A model generated the notes under the pieces. That model searched no databases, was not told the origin of the DNA, and worked only from the letters and a program-made list of their open reading frames with translations. Both the position numbers and the translations under genes were made by a program. From Pelobacter propionicus DSM 2379 (GTDB taxonomy: Bacteria; Desulfobacterota; Desulfuromonadia; Geobacterales; Pseudopelobacteraceae): a DNA stretch of 64,000 nucleotides. This document shows positions 1,410 to 62,557 of this stretch, in pieces (the stretch's first letter is position 1; every line of letters begins with the position of its first letter). The DNA lies in the NCBI RefSeq assembly GCF_000015045.1, contig NC_008609.1, positions 2,737,501 through 2,801,500 on the forward strand. Direction: 5' to 3'.

Positions 1410-2531
1410 TCACCGGTTTCGTTCCATCATCTCCACGAAGCGGCCGAACAGATAGTGGGAGTCGTGGGGGCCGGGAGAGGCCTCGGGGTGGTGCTGCACC
1501 GAGAAGATCGGAAGCGTGCAGTGGCTGATTCCCTCCACGGTCTGGTCGTTCAGGTTCTCGTGCCCCAGGCAGGCCGCATCCCCCAGGGAATCCAGGTCAA
1601 CGGCAAAGCCGTGGTTCTGGGAGGTGATCTCTACCTTGCGGGTGGCCATGTCCATGACCGGCAGGTTGGAGCCGTGGTTGCCGAAGGGGAGCTTCATGGT
1701 CTTGCCACCCAGGGCCAGCCCCAAGAGCTGATGCCCCAGGCAGATACCGAAGATCGGTTTCCTGCCGATCATCTTCCTGATCTCCTCCTGCACCGCCACC
1801 AACGGTTCCGGGTCACCGGGACCGTTGGAGAGGAAGACACCGTCCGGGTTCATGGCCAGCGCCTCTTCCGCCGGGAAGGAGGCTGGCACCACGGTCACGT
1901 CGCAGCCGGCGTCCACCAGGCAGCGGAGGATGTTGTACTTGATGCCGAAATCGTAGGCCACCACCTTGTACTTGAGCGTAACGGGATCCACCTGGGGATA
2001 GCCGTCCTTCAGGTCCCAGAGCCCCTCGGTCCAGTGATAGGGTTTGTCGCAGGAGACGCCCGTGGCCAGGTCCAGGCCGGCCATGCTGGGGATGGCCCGC
2101 GCCTTGGCCACCAGGCTCTCCCGGTCCAGGTCAATGGTGGAGATGATGCCGTTCTGGGCACCCTTGTCCCGCAGGTGGCGGGTGAGCGCCCGGGTGTCGA
2201 TCCCCTGGATGCCGATCACGCCGTTCTCCTTGAGGTAGGAGTCCAGGCTCATGCAGGCCCGCCAGTTGGAGTAGCACTCCTGGTACTCGCGGACGATGAA
2301 GCCGGAGAGGAACAGGCCGCGGCTCTCGATATCCTCGGCATTGATACCGGTGTTACCGATCTGGGTGTAGGTCATGGTGACCATCTGCCCCTTGTAGGAG
2401 GGGTCGGTCAACACCTCCTGGTAGCCGGTCATGGCGGTGTTGAACACCACCTCTCCGCGGGCCTCGCCTCCCGCTCCGAATGATTTCCCCTCAAAGATGC
2501 GCCCGTCGGCGAGCGCCAGTAATGCTTTCAT
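1410..2531 (-). CDS. carA: Carbamoyl-phosphate synthase small subunit (glutaminase)
   Basis: A 373-residue protein, normal length for CarA, which hydrolyses glutamine and channels ammonia to CarB. The N-terminal domain begins MKALLALADGRIFEGKSFGA. The class I glutamine amidotransferase domain shows SNGPGDP, the nucleophile elbow GICLGHQLLG (catalytic Cys) and HPEASPGPHD (catalytic His and Glu). An in-frame GTG lies 69 bases upstream, but the ATG at 2531 gives the conserved N-terminus. It follows pyrC in the pyr operon; carB comes only after two unrelated genes. Confidence 0.97.
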   Translation of the reverse strand: MKALLALADGRIFEGKSFGAGGEARGEVVFNTAMTGYQEVLTDPSYKGQMVTMTYTQIGNTGINAEDIESRGLFLSGFIVREYQECYSNWRACMSLDSYLKENGVIGIQGIDTRALTRHLRDKGAQNGIISTIDLDRESLVAKARAIPSMAGLDLATGVSCDKPYHWTEGLWDLKDGYPQVDPVTLKYKVVAYDFGIKYNILRCLVDAGCDVTVVPASFPAEEALAMNPDGVFLSNGPGDPEPLVAVQEEIRKMIGRKPIFGICLGHQLLGLALGGKTMKLPFGNHGSNLPVMDMATRKVEITSQNHGFAVDLDSLGDAACLGHENLNDQTVEGISHCTLPIFSVQHHPEASPGPHDSHYLFGRFVEMMERNR

Positions 2532-54917: not shown

Positions 54918-54958
54918 AAAAAAAGGGCGGGCGGACCGGAATATCGATCCGCCCGCCC
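54918..54958 (-). terminator. Terminator between the precursor-peptide gene and the dipeptidase gene
   Basis: On the minus strand GGGCGGGCGGA and TCCGCCCGCCC form an 11-bp GC stem with a 12-base loop, followed by seven T residues. Lying 13 bases after the precursor stop codon, it should make most transcripts end there. Confidence 0.88.
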
Positions 54959-54971
54959 GCTCTGGCGCTCA

Positions 54972-55097
54972 TCAGGCAGGGGCATGGCATGCCGGTGCGT
55001 GACAGGCTGGCGCATGACAGGCCGGGGCATGGCAGGATGGGCCATGGCAACCGGCGGCGGACATTGTTCTCTTCTCAACCTTCCTGACCTTCAGCAT
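54972..55097 (-). CDS. Cys-repeat RiPP precursor peptide (CHAPA repeats)
   Basis: A 41-residue peptide. The N-terminal part MLKVRKVEKRTMSAAG is basic and would be the leader; the rest is five pentapeptides, CHGPS then four copies of CHAPA, so that a cysteine occurs at every fifth residue. The ribosome site GGAAGGAGGTG is near perfect. The gene lies 84 bp after a B12-binding radical SAM gene with a PqqD-like tail and before an M19 dipeptidase. I recall a RiPP family described as Cys-every-fifth (CefA), which it may belong to; I could not verify this. The product could be a thioether or otherwise cross-linked peptide. Confidence 0.8.
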   Translation of the reverse strand: MLKVRKVEKRTMSAAGCHGPSCHAPACHAPACHAPACHAPA

Positions 55098-55181
55098 AGA
55101 ATCACCTCCTTCCCATGACGAAACCCGACTCCCTGAAGGATTCGGGGAAATGCAACGACATCTTTTGCGATGCGAACCCCG

Positions 55182-57206
55182 CTATGACGGCAGCCGCACC
55201 AGATCCATCTCCCTGAGCGTCTCCATCGCTTCCCGACACTCGTCCATGAAGCCTTCGCTCCCCATGCCGGAGCCGTAGCGTTGGTACAGGTCGCGGGCGA
55301 TCTCCTCCAGCCGGGCCGAACCGTCGCACAGTTCCAGCAGATCCCGGCCGAACTCGTTGATCTGGGTCACCTCCACCCCGTTCTCCCCGGCGGAGAAGAC
55401 CAGCAGCGTCGGCTCCTGGGGATAGCTCTCCCGGAAGATCCCCTCCTTCAGGTCGTCGACGATGCCGGGCAGGTTGTGGGAAAATTCCCTGACCACAACG
55501 CCCCTGTCCCGCCGGGGAAGCAGCTCCGCCAGGCGGCAGAGGTCGGCGGTGGCGGTCGCCCGGTTCAGCGGGACGATGGCCGTCTCCAGGGACTGGGTTT
55601 CGTAGAGGACGATTTCGGGCAGATGGCACCAGGAGCCGTCGACACGGGCCTCGGCAAGCGCTTTGCCGCAGAAAGAGGGAACATGGCAACGGCACTCCTC
55701 GGGGGTGAGGGAGAGGACCGTCCGCGCCTCCGCGACGGCGACATAACCCAGCAGGCGGGAAAAAAGCCGGCTGGGCGGCTCCCCCAGCGCCATGGCCAGG
55801 AGCAGAAACGTCTTGGGGTACAGGTTGACGAGCAGCGGGAAAAAGCGGGACAGGCGGTCCAGTTCGTCCAGCCCGAGACCGGCGCAGGGGAGATTGTAAA
55901 ATCCGCTGAACAGGAACGGGTCTGACTCGATCAGCCGGGAATCCTCTTCCAGGCGCCGGGCGTCATGGAATTCCAGGCCGAGGGAGAAGTAGCTGTCAGC
56001 CTCGCGCACCAGACAATCCACGTAGCGCCGGTGCAACTCGGTGCCGGGGAGCACCGTGGGGAGCTGGATCAGCGGGTTGCAGTTCCCCTGGATTCCGGCC
56101 CTGAGCGCCAGAAAGAGGGTCTGGTCCACATCCTCCCGCTGTTCCTCGGGGAAACCTATCACGAAGCTGAGCGTCGGCACCATTCCCTCATCCGTGGTCT
56201 CCCTGACCCGCTGGTAGAGGATGGTTTCATCGATCTGCTTGCCGATGAATGCCAGGGTGCGCCGCGACCCCGAGTCGATGCCGTAGCACATGGACTCGCA
56301 CCCCGCCTCCCGCATCAGCCGCAGCAGTTCCACATCCATGGAGTCGAGCCGGGAGATGCAGTACCAGGGGGTGTCGTTCAGCCCCTCCTCCAGGACCCGT
56401 CGGCAGAACTCCTCCACGAAGCGCCGGTCTGCGGTGAACTGGTCGTAGGCCAGCAGGAAGCACTGGGCGCCGTAGCGCTCCCGCAGGCGGCGCATCTCAT
56501 GGGTGATGCGGGGGATGGAGAAGGTGCGCGTGCGCCGCCGCCACATGATTGATTCGGAGCAGTAGACGCAGGCATGGGGGCATCCCCTCCCCACCTCCAG
56601 GATGGCTATGGCGCGGGGAATCCCGCAGGCGTCACGGTAGGTTTCAAGGTCGGGCACGAAGCCGTAGTCCGGGAGCGGGAGCACGTCCAGGTCGCTGATC
56701 AACTGCCGGTCCGGGTTGCGGATCACCTCGGTTCCCCGGCGCCAGCTGATTCCCTCGATCCCCTCCCCCTCCTCTCTCACGGCCCAGGCAGAGACCAGTT
56801 CCGACAGGCTCAACTCCCCCTCCCCCCTGACCACCGCGTCGATCCAGGGAAAGCGTTCCAAGGTCCGTTCGGCGACGAACGTCACGTCATGGCCGCCAGC
56901 AACGATCCGTATCTCCGGCCTGGCCTTCTTCAGCCGTTGGGCGATCTGGACGACAGCCGGAAAGGTGGCGCACTGCACGGAAAAGCCCACCAGGTCGGGA
57001 TCATGGCGCAGGATCATGCGGGCGGCGTCTTCGTAGATGGCGGAGCTGGGGTTAAGCGTCTTCAGGCGGAGGGCGAGGACAAGATCCAGGACATCGACCT
57101 GATGCCCCCCCTCCCTGAGCAGGGTGGCAAGGTTGAGCAGCCCCAGTGGCGGGAGGTTGTAGAGCGACTGGAGGTAGAATGGCGGGAAGACGAGTGTGAT
57201 CTTCAT
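55182..57206 (-). CDS. B12-binding radical SAM enzyme with C-terminal PqqD-like domain
   Basis: A 674-residue enzyme. Residues 1-140 form a cobalamin-binding-type Rossmann domain (FPPFYLQSLYNLPPLGLLNLA, VAGGHDVTF). The radical SAM barrel has LEVGRGCPHACVYCSES (Cys209, Cys213, Cys216), YGIDSGSRRTL and FVIGFPEEQREDV. The last 85 residues (TQINEFGRDLLELCDGSARLEEIARDLY) resemble PqqD, the domain that binds precursor leaders. This combination suits a maturase of the CHAPA peptide encoded next to it. The start at 57206 is chosen for the MKITLVFPPFY opening; the ribosome site is weak. Confidence 0.82.
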   Translation of the reverse strand: MKITLVFPPFYLQSLYNLPPLGLLNLATLLREGGHQVDVLDLVLALRLKTLNPSSAIYEDAARMILRHDPDLVGFSVQCATFPAVVQIAQRLKKARPEIRIVAGGHDVTFVAERTLERFPWIDAVVRGEGELSLSELVSAWAVREEGEGIEGISWRRGTEVIRNPDRQLISDLDVLPLPDYGFVPDLETYRDACGIPRAIAILEVGRGCPHACVYCSESIMWRRRTRTFSIPRITHEMRRLRERYGAQCFLLAYDQFTADRRFVEEFCRRVLEEGLNDTPWYCISRLDSMDVELLRLMREAGCESMCYGIDSGSRRTLAFIGKQIDETILYQRVRETTDEGMVPTLSFVIGFPEEQREDVDQTLFLALRAGIQGNCNPLIQLPTVLPGTELHRRYVDCLVREADSYFSLGLEFHDARRLEEDSRLIESDPFLFSGFYNLPCAGLGLDELDRLSRFFPLLVNLYPKTFLLLAMALGEPPSRLFSRLLGYVAVAEARTVLSLTPEECRCHVPSFCGKALAEARVDGSWCHLPEIVLYETQSLETAIVPLNRATATADLCRLAELLPRRDRGVVVREFSHNLPGIVDDLKEGIFRESYPQEPTLLVFSAGENGVEVTQINEFGRDLLELCDGSARLEEIARDLYQRYGSGMGSEGFMDECREAMETLREMDLVRLPS

Positions 57207-57520: not shown

Positions 57521-58147
57521 TTATTCCCTGTTCATGCGTCGTTTGCCGAAGATGGCCAGGCCCAGCATGCCGGCCCCCAGGAGGACCATGGTGCCCGGTT
57601 CGGGGACAGGGGTCTGTTCAACATCGCGCGCGTAGAGTGTTAAATGGGACAGATCTGGTATCTGCCCACCATTGTTTGTGAAGGTAATTGCCCAACTATC
57701 GCCGGTGCCGTTTGACCCAGTTGCATTGAGCAGTTCATTGTCAAACAAATAGGCGCTCCAACTACTTGATCCTTTGAGAACGGCCACCAAATCTACGGTT
57801 GCAGGAAGTGATGCACCACTCCATGTCAGGTACCACGTTCCCGAAGTCCCACCTGTTGAACGCAAAGAAAAGTAAATGCCATCCAACTCACCTATAGAGG
57901 AAGCTTGACCATTAAGCGTTTCGTCTTTTGCGACAAAAGTAAATTCGTTGCCCCGAAAAAGCGAGTCGGAGTACCCTAAGTCATTCAGCCCACCTGCGGA
58001 ATCGTTTCCGGAATTCGGTCCACTGCACGCATCAGCAGCAAATCCATTCAGTTGCATATCAGAGTTCAAGCATGAAGATGAATGTGCCATACTCACCATT
58101 CCAGCCATGAACACACTCGTTAGCAATGTAATCAATATCTTTTTCAT
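57521..58147 (-). CDS. PEP-CTERM sorting-domain exported protein 3
   Basis: A 208-residue secreted protein: signal peptide about 1-22 (MKKILITLLTSVFMAGMVSM, then AHS), a beta-rich mature region with conserved CSGPNSGNDSAGGLND, SSGTWYLTWSG-like and LVAVLKGSSSWSAYLFD segments, and the C-terminal anchor VPEPGTMVLLGAGMLGLAIF then GKRRMNRE. The pattern WxGxxLPATVDLVAVLKGSxxWSAYLFD is typical of a PEP-CTERM subgroup; function unknown. The start at 58147 has AAAGGAG upstream. It has its own sigma-54 promoter and terminator. Confidence 0.9.
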   Translation of the reverse strand: MKKILITLLTSVFMAGMVSMAHSSSCLNSDMQLNGFAADACSGPNSGNDSAGGLNDLGYSDSLFRGNEFTFVAKDETLNGQASSIGELDGIYFSLRSTGGTSGTWYLTWSGASLPATVDLVAVLKGSSSWSAYLFDNELLNATGSNGTGDSWAITFTNNGGQIPDLSHLTLYARDVEQTPVPEPGTMVLLGAGMLGLAIFGKRRMNRE

Positions 58148-58491: not shown

Positions 58492-60168
58492 GAGTCTGTC
58501 GGGCTTAACGCATTCAGCCGTCATCTCCAGGGCGTTTTCAATTGGTTAACCTGCTGTATTTATTGAATAAGTCGTCAGCTTTAGCTTGCGTTTTCTTGGT
58601 GTATCCCGTATATTTGTCCGGTAATATCAACTGGTTAGGTATCGGGGTTGACTATGAAATCAAAGTTTATTGAAGTTGACCGGGAAACACCCTATCTGCT
58701 CCCGCCATCGCTGCAGGATTGGCTACCAGAAAAGCACTTGGCCCGGTTTGTGGTCGAAATTGTCGAACAGCTCGACCTGCGCTCTTTGAAAGCTACCTAT
58801 GCCGGCCGAGGCTCGCAGCCCTATAACCCTGAGATGCTGGTAGCATTGTTGTTTTACGGTTATGCGACAGGCGTATTCTCCAGCCGGAAGCTTGAGCGCA
58901 GCACCTACGACTCCGTGGCATTCCGGTTCATAGCGGCAAACAGTCATCCTGACCACGATACCATTGCCACCTTCCGCCGGCGTTTTCTGCCGCAACTGAA
59001 CAAGCTGTTTGCCCAGATTCTGCTGATCGCTCATCAGATGGAGGTGCTGAAACTGGGCAACGTTAGTTTGGATGGCAGCAAAATCAAGGCGAACGCCTCC
59101 AAGCACAAGGCGCTGAGCTATGAGCATGCCTGCAAGCTTGAAGAGCAGATCAAGGCTGAGGTTGGCGAACTGCTCAAAAAGGCCGAGGCAGCGGACCGTG
59201 CCGATATTCCGGACGGCATGAACATCCCCGAAGAACTGGAACGTCGGGAAAAGCGTCTTTCCGCCATTGCCGCAGCCAAGGTCGAGATCGAAAAACGAGC
59301 CGCTGAGCGCCATGCTCGTGAACAGGCCGCTTATGAGAAGAAAGTCGCCGAACGGGCCAAGAAGGAGCAGGCAACGGGCAAGAAGGCCAAGGGGAAAGAG
59401 CCGAAACCGCCCAAATCCGGCCCCACTGCCAAAGATCAGGTCAATCTGACCGATGAAGAGTCGCGGATCATGCCGACCTCCGGTGGCGGATTCGAGCAGA
59501 CTTACAACGCCCAGGCCGGTGTGGATACAGCATCAAAGCTCATCGTTTCGGCCCATGTTACCCAGAATCCCAATGACAAACAGGAGCTGACACCGACCCT
59601 GGAGAACCTGGCGGCGCTGCCTGAGAAGCTTGGCAAGGCAACCGATCTGGTAGCTGACAGTGGCTACTTCAGCGAAACCAATGTAACTGCCTGTGAGGAG
59701 AACGGGATAACTCCCTACATTGCCGTAGACCGGCAGAGTCACAACGTGCCACTGATGGAGCGCTTTGCCGAACCGCCGCCGTTACCCGAAGATGCCGATT
59801 CCGTGGCCAGAATGAAGCATCGCCTGAAGACACCTTCCGGCAAGGCGATCTACGCCCAGCGAAAAGTCACCTCGGAACCGGTCTTCGGCATCATCAAGGC
59901 GGTCATGGGATTCAGAAGCTTTCTTCTTCGTGGCTTTGAAGCAGTAAAAGGCGAATGGAACCTCGTCTGCATGGCCTACAACATCAAACGGCTGCATGTC
60001 TTGGCCGGATAGAATGAGAAATAGCGAAAATCAGCCTGTAATAACCGCAGTCATCGCTGAAAGGGCTGAATTAACCAGGTTGCCGGTGGGAAGACGAACA
60101 CATACGGAACTTTTTTAATCGGCTTGGCCACAAAAGAGGGCGCCCCTGAGGTCAAGCCCGACAGACTC
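58492..60168 (+). mobile_element. Complete IS1182-family insertion sequence
   Basis: A 1677-bp element bounded by perfect 15-bp inverted repeats GAGTCTGTCGGGCTT (58492-58506) and AAGCCCGACAGACTC (60154-60168). CTAG flanks it on both sides (58488-58491 and 60169-60172), consistent with a 4-bp target duplication of a palindromic site. One intact transposase gene lies inside. The flanks show no interrupted gene. Confidence 0.9.
58654..60012 (+). CDS. IS1182-family transposase
   Basis: A 452-residue DDE transposase. The N-terminal domain is LPPSLQDWLPEKHLARFVVE with SHPDHDTIATFRRRF. Catalytic blocks are VSLDGSKIKANAS (first Asp), LVADSGYFSE (second Asp) and the C-terminal YAQRKVTSEPVFGIIK (Glu). 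A charged coiled-coil insertion (AEKRAAERHAREQAAYEKK-like) lies between the first two, as in the family. The ATG at 58654 is preferred over a TTG 6 bases upstream. The reading frame is intact, so the element may be active. Confidence 0.93.
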   Translation: MKSKFIEVDRETPYLLPPSLQDWLPEKHLARFVVEIVEQLDLRSLKATYAGRGSQPYNPEMLVALLFYGYATGVFSSRKLERSTYDSVAFRFIAANSHPDHDTIATFRRRFLPQLNKLFAQILLIAHQMEVLKLGNVSLDGSKIKANASKHKALSYEHACKLEEQIKAEVGELLKKAEAADRADIPDGMNIPEELERREKRLSAIAAAKVEIEKRAAERHAREQAAYEKKVAERAKKEQATGKKAKGKEPKPPKSGPTAKDQVNLTDEESRIMPTSGGGFEQTYNAQAGVDTASKLIVSAHVTQNPNDKQELTPTLENLAALPEKLGKATDLVADSGYFSETNVTACEENGITPYIAVDRQSHNVPLMERFAEPPPLPEDADSVARMKHRLKTPSGKAIYAQRKVTSEPVFGIIKAVMGFRSFLLRGFEAVKGEWNLVCMAYNIKRLHVLAG

Positions 60169-61999: not shown

Positions 62000-62557
62000 C
62001 TATTTCTCTTTACACTCTTTCATGATCCTATAGACGCTAGCAACCCCGATCTTCAGTTCATCAGCAATAGCTTGTTTGGTCATACCTTGCCCGATCAACT
62101 CCATGACCTTCTCGGACTGCGCCATTGCAGTTGCCTTCCTACCCTTGTACTTCCCTGCTTCCTTAGCAGCCCGTATGCCTTCCCTTTGTCGCTCTAGCAT
62201 CATCTCACGCTCGAAGGTCGCTATTGCACCAAGCATGGTTAACATAAGTTTCCCAGTGGATGTGGTGGTATCAAGCTGAATGTTGAGCACCTTAAAGGCA
62301 ACGTGCCTCTCTTCCAGATCCTCAGTGATGCTCAGTAGATGTTTTGTGCTCCTAGCGATTCTGTCGAGCTTACAAACCACCACCGTGTCACCTTCCCGGA
62401 CATAATCCAGCATCGCTGCAAGCTCCGGTCTATCAGCATCCGCTCCGCTTGCCTTCTCTTGGTACACCTTGTCGACACCAGCGGCCCGGAGCTGCTCTAA
62501 CTGAACGGCCAAGTCCTGTTCTTGAGTACTGACCCTTGCATACCCGATTACAGCCAT
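62000..62557 (-). CDS. Serine recombinase (resolvase/invertase family)
   Basis: A 185-residue small serine recombinase. The catalytic Ser is in GYARVSTQEQDL (Ser10), with the conserved Arg in LDRIARSTKHLL, the E-helix region GAIATFEREMMLERQREGI, and a C-terminal helix-turn-helix (MTKQAIADELKIGVASVYRIM). Such proteins resolve cointegrates or invert DNA. AGGAG precedes the ATG. No Tn3-type transposase is adjacent, so it may belong to an integrated plasmid or genomic island. Confidence 0.92.
   Translation of the reverse strand: MAVIGYARVSTQEQDLAVQLEQLRAAGVDKVYQEKASGADADRPELAAMLDYVREGDTVVVCKLDRIARSTKHLLSITEDLEERHVAFKVLNIQLDTTTSTGKLMLTMLGAIATFEREMMLERQREGIRAAKEAGKYKGRKATAMAQSEKVMELIGQGMTKQAIADELKIGVASVYRIMKECKEK

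Follow-up and report, generated by a model that had tools for sequence, protein, structure and literature searches.

The cassette analysed here lies in a 64,000-nucleotide stretch of the Pelobacter propionicus DSM 2379 genome (NC_008609.1, positions 2,737,501 to 2,801,500; hereafter the window), where a very short gene follows the gene of a B12-binding radical S-adenosylmethionine (SAM) enzyme (Table 1). An earlier note on this DNA had proposed that the two genes encode a ribosomally synthesized and post-translationally modified peptide (RiPP) and its maturase. As that note described, the short gene has 41 codons and a strong ribosome-binding site, and the encoded peptide reads MLKVRKVEKRTMSAAG, then CHGPS and then four CHAPA repeats, the leader being basic. 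From first to fifth, the units are encoded by TGC-CAT-GGC-CCA-TCC, TGC-CAT-GCC-CCG-GCC, TGT-CAT-GCG-CCA-GCC, TGT-CAC-GCA-CCG-GCA and TGC-CAT-GCC-CCT-GCC. Because the codons differ among the units, a recent duplication of the repeat was ruled out, in agreement with the note. The short gene begins 84 bases after the end of the radical SAM gene and is followed, after another 97 bases and on the same strand, by the gene of an M19 peptidase. The terminator-like hairpin 3′ of the short gene is one of 3 such sites found by the scan, a count that does not differ significantly from the 2.2 found in shuffled sequences.

Table 1. Features of the cassette and of the adjacent peptidase gene, in window coordinates.
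Feature	Position	Strand	Evidence or remark
Precursor peptide gene, 41 aa, basic leader and five CHxP units	54972..55097	-	ORF translation
Ribosome-binding site of the precursor gene, AAGGAGGTGA	55102..55111	-	4 bases 5′ of the ATG
B12-binding radical SAM enzyme, 674 aa	55182..57206	-	Pfam domains; orthologs in 35 other genomes
B12-binding domain, residues 16-137	56796..57161	-	PF02310, 76.2 bits (cut-off 32.1)
Radical SAM core, residues 204-366	56109..56597	-	PF04055, 66.5 bits (cut-off 29.5)
CxxxCxxC motif, residues 209-216 of the enzyme	56559-56582	-	C209, C213 and C216 invariant in the alignment
PqqD/RRE-like C-terminal domain, residues 613-662, presumed leader-binding	55221..55370	-	PF05402
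M19 (membrane dipeptidase-like) peptidase, 344 aa	53841..54875	-	PF01244, 209.7 bits (cut-off 26)
Terminator-like hairpin, 14 pairs and T run, 3′ of the precursor gene	54925..54958	-	Consensus match only

The identification of the larger gene product as a B12-binding radical SAM protein held up, with both domains over their Pfam cut-offs in the window and present in 34/34 aligned members. Identity to the window enzyme ranges from 42 to 58% across 33 nearly full-length aligned relatives. We placed the start at the ATG at 57206; an alternative upstream TTG would extend the protein to 682 aa. The C-terminus, which the note had likened to PqqD, may be a RiPP recognition element (RRE). PqqD matches at E<=0.01 occur in 14/34 aligned enzymes, the window's among them; the window match, at 21.9 bits, falls just below the PF05402 cut-off of 23.4. 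The ApyI model aligns with residues 542-671 of the enzyme at 25 bits. ApyD, the best-scoring named family, was rejected as an assignment (257.8 bits, far under the cut-off of 750). An AlphaFold model of the enzyme built from three sequences was of too low quality to be informative about this tail (mean predicted local distance difference test score, 51.4).

To describe the spread of the pair we read the DNA 3′ of the enzyme in 36 distinct genomes that carry it, the window's included, accepting enzyme matches at E<=1e-60 among close relatives and at E<=1e-70 in the phylum, order and class searches. The enzyme is scattered within the phylum (13/395 evenly drawn genomes, 14/85 of one order and 16/55 of one class), and the kin of the window enzyme belong to other families and classes of that phylum. 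The note had looked to other Geobacterales for co-occurrence; among 57 close-relative genomes, the enzyme was found only in the window's own. A precursor gene lies just downstream of the enzyme in 34 of the 36 loci: 21 precursors, counting the window's, are of the CHxP type (Cys-type), and 13 carry a single UHAP unit, U being selenocysteine (Sec). Their leaders resemble one another, as MLKIKKVEKKVSSAAS (locus L027) and MLQVKDIEKKILVTAV (L079) illustrate, and follow the pattern M-[LV]-x-[IV]-[KR]-x-[VI]-E-x, and AGGAGG stands upstream of 29 of the 30 precursors with upstream bases read. Because leader and CHxP core recur 3′ of the same enzyme elsewhere, the window gene is more than a chance reading frame. 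The precursor and the B12-radical SAM enzyme are a conserved pair, and the short gene represents a conserved family. The refutation that the note had set for itself, no conservation of the short gene beside homologous enzymes, did not occur, and a RiPP-type precursor with its maturase is supported. A separate scan of contigs with six exact peptide patterns returned two relatives; given such exact patterns, the lack of further matches is of little value as evidence on other phyla.

What the Cys-type precursors have in common is a short unit. In the 20 gap-free sequences, 128/128 Cys residues sit in C-H-x-P, where x is Ala (100), Gly (16) or Ser (12), and each precursor has 4-9 such units. The Ala and Pro are conserved along with the Cys/Sec-His dyad. 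The precursor at L078 keeps five CHAP units without regular spacing, so the conserved feature is the C-H-x-P unit and not a period of five. The Cys at every fifth residue that the note had emphasized is true of the window peptide but not of the family, in which L078 is irregular and 13 precursors are reduced to one UHAP. The suggested membership in the CefA family (NF038108) failed as well. The interval of five is shared with CefA, but the window peptide scored 15 bits and three relatives 16.0, 19.4 and 19.5, against a cut-off of 30, and the spacing is not kept. Run on the 57 close relatives, the CefA model gave 4 sub-threshold matches to low-complexity-like frames and none over the cut-off. 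A sub-cut-off match to this model, a CGRH[ET]-repeat frame at about 1480-1600 (-) of L012, may be the shadow frame of a different repeat.

In the 13 loci with a single unit, an in-frame TGA occupies the Cys position, with coding sequence on both sides, and the peptide ends in UHAP[TS][EQ]SPVRR and a stop; every one of the 13 Sec codons belongs to a UHAP unit, and 9 of these precursors have no Cys left. Directly 3′ of the TGA is a hairpin resembling a selenocysteine insertion sequence (SECIS), present in 11/13 minimum-energy folds (two fold otherwise), with weak folding z-scores (-2.90 to -0.04, n=13). Synonymous differences in its stem codons amount to 22/368 comparable pairs, compared to 170/272 for the HAPx codons, 50/78 for the loop Val codon and 196/532 for the leader. 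SelB scored over cut-off in 12 of the 13 Sec-type genomes (G545 had a partial match only), and tRNA-Sec was present in both Sec-type genomes examined for it (76.7 and 73.4 bits); in the window genome neither SelB nor tRNA-Sec was above cut-off. In the enzyme tree, rooted by midpoint only, the 13 Sec-type enzymes share one well-supported clade of 15 (99/97) with two others, L074, which has no precursor, and the Cys-type L078, which is nested within the clade (97/90). The simplest account is a single gain of Sec followed by two losses, with L078 reverting to Cys with five units. Decayed CH units precede the Sec unit in four precursors (L034, L036, L072 and L073). At about 5914-5950 of L074, the enzyme frame runs into an ESPVRR tail, SECIS-like hairpin included, which is apparently what remains of a Sec-type precursor lost by deletion.

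Clustering the neighbor genes of the 36 loci identified two that recur, a methyltransferase fused to a Trm112-like N-terminus and the M19 peptidase. The methyltransferase (~312 aa) is near the enzyme in 18/36 loci, all Cys-type, and its best families are TIGR04345 and Trm112. TIGR04345, annotated as '4-mercaptohistidine N1-methyltransferase' and modeled on the OvoA C-terminal part, was matched by 18/18 of the linked proteins (E<=0.001) and was the best-matching catalytic family for both members scored. The top solved structures for their profile were OvsM (2.4e-31), OvoA (4.6e-31) and OvoM (3.6e-30), the next being at 1.9e-13. The window genome lacks the Trm112 fusion and encodes instead a canonical stand-alone methyltransferase about 0.4 Mb from the cassette (L039:1390-2175), with 305.8 bits to TIGR04345 (cut-off 170) and 1.5e-64 to OvoM. 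Likewise away from the cassette, 15/15 enzyme-carrying genomes of family f94 encode the same methyltransferase as the linked loci, with 45-51% identity (in G532, a part at a contig end). In all, 34 of the 36 enzyme genomes encode the methyltransferase. It is present in 15/16 enzyme-positive and 7/39 enzyme-negative genomes of one class (Fisher 1.9e-7) and in 13/14 and 16/71, respectively, of one order (Fisher 1.0e-6), both tests ignoring relatedness.

The M19 peptidase is near the enzyme in 21/36 loci, of which 12 are Sec-type and 8, the window among them, are Cys-type; the remaining one is L074. GliJ, a dipeptidase of sulfur conjugates in gliotoxin synthesis, is one of the solved structures related to the window protein. 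The His of the H-P-R-N motif, presumably a metal ligand in M19 enzymes, is replaced in all 20 proteins that reach the motif (from a set of the window protein and 20 relatives), with HxD, E and SH kept; the solved structures 3ly0 and 3fdg also have no His at the aligned position. A class V pyridoxal phosphate (PLP) protein lies 3′ of the cassette on the opposite strand in 8/36 loci (L031, L034, L035, L038, L071, L072, L074 and L077). The one member scored was cysteine desulfurase-like (SufS 136 bits, cut-off 475; EgtE 88, cut-off 400).

The invariant Cys/Sec-His pair, a methyltransferase of the type that acts on thio- and selenohistidine and the M19 neighbor fit one scheme, which we consider probable: a RiPP-type cassette that would move the sulfur of Cys, or the selenium of Sec, onto the adjacent His and release a small product of the ovothiol or ovoselenol type. 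The PqqD-like tail of the enzyme would bind the leader of the precursor, allowing the B12-radical SAM enzyme to act on each C-H-x-P or U-H-A-P unit. Radical formation of a C-S (or C-Se) bond would link the Cys (or Sec) to the imidazole of the adjacent His as a Cys-His thioether, and the carbon side of the Cys would then be lost as dehydroalanine. Peptidases, among them the M19 dipeptidase at the dipeptide step, may free 5-thiohistidine or 5-selenohistidine, and N-methylation by the OvoM/OvsM-type enzyme would yield the ovothiol- or ovoselenol-type molecule without the O2-dependent OvoA. The conserved pair, the invariant dyad, the Sec recoding signature and the gene co-occurrence are observed, while we infer the transfer, the order of the steps, the substrate of the dipeptidase and the identity of the product. 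The Sec of the Sec-type precursors occupies the place of the reacting chalcogen, as a transfer from Cys to His predicts, and a methyltransferase for 5-selenohistidine (OvsM) exists. The methyltransferase query matched once in the window genome (E<=0.001) and once in every one of the 15 f94 genomes (E<=1e-12). Because the query matches the methyltransferase domain of OvoA at 3.9e-20, it would be expected to detect a fused OvoA, and none appeared in the window genome. A plasmid OvoA query detected no sulfoxide-synthase part in the loci examined, which include 17 kb around the methyltransferase of the window genome; a stand-alone copy elsewhere was not searched for.

Several observations weigh against the transfer scheme. 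Two of the 36 enzyme loci lack a precursor: L074 and L063, which shares its contig with L010. The M19 gene is near only 8 of the 21 Cys-type loci, though some of these contigs end early. Two linked methyltransferases scored 93 and 93.9 bits against the TIGR04345 cut-off of 170, and we therefore call the Trm112 fusion a relative, not a member, of that family. The Sec-type genomes do not have the methyltransferase linked to the cassette, and its query had no match at E<=1e-12 in G513, which has a precursor, or in G500, which does not. Conversely, 23 genomes have the methyltransferase and no detected radical SAM enzyme. Known B12-radical SAM enzymes, moreover, mostly methylate, which is why we rate the transfer scheme as probable and no higher and give some weight to a peptide that stays a peptide after modification. 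ApyD itself is described as a beta-methylase of Tyr (PMC11002830).

That second reading, a classical RiPP, is possible although we think it unlikely. In it, the enzyme would methylate carbon or sulfur or cross-link Cys to His, the OvoM-like enzyme would methylate the imidazole, M19 would trim the ends and the product would be a peptide. A B12-radical SAM enzyme with an RRE-like tail is in keeping with this, as are the tandem units, which resemble those of multi-core RiPPs, and the nearest named family, a peptide beta-methylase (PMC11002830). A thioether cross-link and a sulfur transfer that leaves dehydroalanine each cost 2 H per unit; mass alone, therefore, cannot separate them. One UHAP unit is enough in 13 loci, however, and the partner methyltransferase is of a type that belongs with enzymes of free thio- and selenohistidine. 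The recurrent neighbors also include no transporter or immunity gene, save for ABC-type proteins that a minority of the loci encode upstream.

A metal-binding peptide, akin to a metallothionein or metallophore, is improbable. Its Cys-His pairs would bind Cu, Zn or Hg, with the enzyme tuning the binding, and the many Cys-His-rich copies in the Cys-type precursors would suit such a role. It is difficult to reconcile with the 13 precursors that are reduced to one UHAP, 9 of them without any Cys, and it leaves the thiohistidine methyltransferase unexplained; no metal transporter or regulator was recognized among the recurrent neighbors, whose annotation is not exhaustive. Because of the methyltransferase partner, the M19 dipeptidase and the Sec variants, the repeated cross-links and the metal binding suggested in the earlier note are no longer the leading ideas, and we retain them as rivals. 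Least probable is an unmodified or regulatory peptide, in which CHAPACH is read as overlapping CX4CH heme c motifs or the Cys and His codons form an attenuation leader before the terminator-like hairpin. The basic leader lacks a hydrophobic signal stretch, the spacing in L078 is irregular, the Sec-type precursors have a single unit and the Ala and Pro are also conserved.

Like the ovothiol and ovoselenol pathways (OvoA/OvoB/OvoM and OvsM), the proposed transfer would take sulfur from Cys to His and shares the type of 5-thio-/5-selenohistidine N-methyltransferase. The step described for OvoA joins free Cys to free His and depends on O2 (PMC10903977, PMC12631010), whereas the cassette has the Cys or Sec next to the His within one ribosomal peptide and, as its candidate enzyme, a radical SAM protein. 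O2-independent insertion of sulfur into a histidine imidazole has a precedent in MES, whose N-terminal, sulfur-inserting half is related to acetylene hydratase and is reported to act on trimethylhistidine without O2 (PMC9516567). MES differs in that its substrate is free, a desulfurase is fused to it and a peptide is not used. A possible counterpart is encoded next to the thiohistidine-type methyltransferase where the radical SAM enzyme is missing: a ~690-aa molybdopterin enzyme follows the methyltransferase in 18/23 enzyme-negative loci and in 0/8 unlinked loci of enzyme-positive genomes. The 18 loci are L103-L109, L112-L116, L118, L120, L121 and L130-L132. The one such protein compared with known structures, from L112, has acetylene hydratase as its closest match (8.4e-80) and no fused desulfurase. 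The ~690-aa enzyme is a candidate for a MES-type anaerobic 5-thiohistidine synthase, and two unrelated anaerobic routes may supply the substrate of one methyltransferase. In nine other loci (L119 and L122-L129), the methyltransferase is unlinked and a ~276-aa protein, CysQ-like as read by eye, follows it.

Other RiPP systems share parts of the cassette. The selenobacteriocins (SbtA-SbtM), which are thio(seleno)oxazole RiPPs, also combine Sec in the precursor with a radical SAM enzyme (PMC11002830, PMC13188914). SbtM, however, is reported to be a SPASM radical SAM protein and its motif is SGUG, while the enzyme described here binds B12 and has no Pfam SPASM match, the motif is UHAP and the neighbors are different. 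ApyD, the aminopyruvatide maturase, is likewise a B12-radical SAM enzyme with an RRE-type tail, but the precursor here does not have the Asp/aromatic signature, and neither a P450 nor an MNIO was recognized nearby. The pearlins provide a precedent for making a small sulfur amino-acid analogue, 3-thiaglutamate, on a peptide scaffold (TglA) from which it is then freed (PMC9016710). In the pearlins, Cys is attached C-terminally by a PEARL enzyme, whereas the residues proposed to react in the cassette are ribosomal and often occur in tandem.

We found nothing on a CHAPA/UHAP peptide or a ribosomal ovothiol route in the literature searched, which was mostly open-access, and no NCBIfam model names the precursor. 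In the portions available of a 2026 inventory of prokaryotic selenoproteins, a term search located the selenobacteriocin (SGUG) and no 'UHA'. Reviews, in the parts available, give O2-independent routes for ergothioneine and not for ovothiol (PMC10903977, PMC12631010). We read the cassette as a new one of RiPP type, and its likely chemistry would be new as well. More specifically, it could allow a ribosomally templated synthesis of ovothiol or ovoselenol that needs no O2 and takes place on a throw-away peptide, with the translated Sec of one clade supplying the selenium, one Sec unit replacing several Cys units and the L078 lineage back at five Cys units; we regard the case for and against this fuller proposal as evenly balanced. 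Ovothiol-type thiols are regarded as products of an O2-dependent enzyme. If the proposal is correct, strict anaerobes build thio- and selenohistidines on a ribosomal scaffold, and B12-radical SAM chemistry would gain C-S and C-Se transfer on an imidazole. The Sec-type peptides would be a second kind of Sec-containing RiPP precursor beside selenobacteriocin, and Sec insertion would serve to build a selenium metabolite and not an enzyme active site. The switch between Cys and Sec in one clade would then be a natural experiment on the reason for using Sec.

The remaining observations concern mobility and the surroundings of the cassette. No relatives were found in viral contigs, and plasmids yielded only two distant radical SAM proteins with 34-35% identity. 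On a Sinorhizobium plasmid (L135:4803-8446), two radical SAM genes are neighbors, the first 34% identical to the window enzyme, and no CHxP peptide was present in the three intergenic gaps translated there. In the window, a PEP-CTERM protein is encoded at 57521-58147 (-), directly upstream of the radical SAM gene and on the same strand. Further away are a transposase-like frame at 58648-60012 (+) and a resolvase-like frame at 62000-62557 (-), both read by eye, which are in keeping with a gain of the cassette by transfer into a genome whose close relatives are without it.

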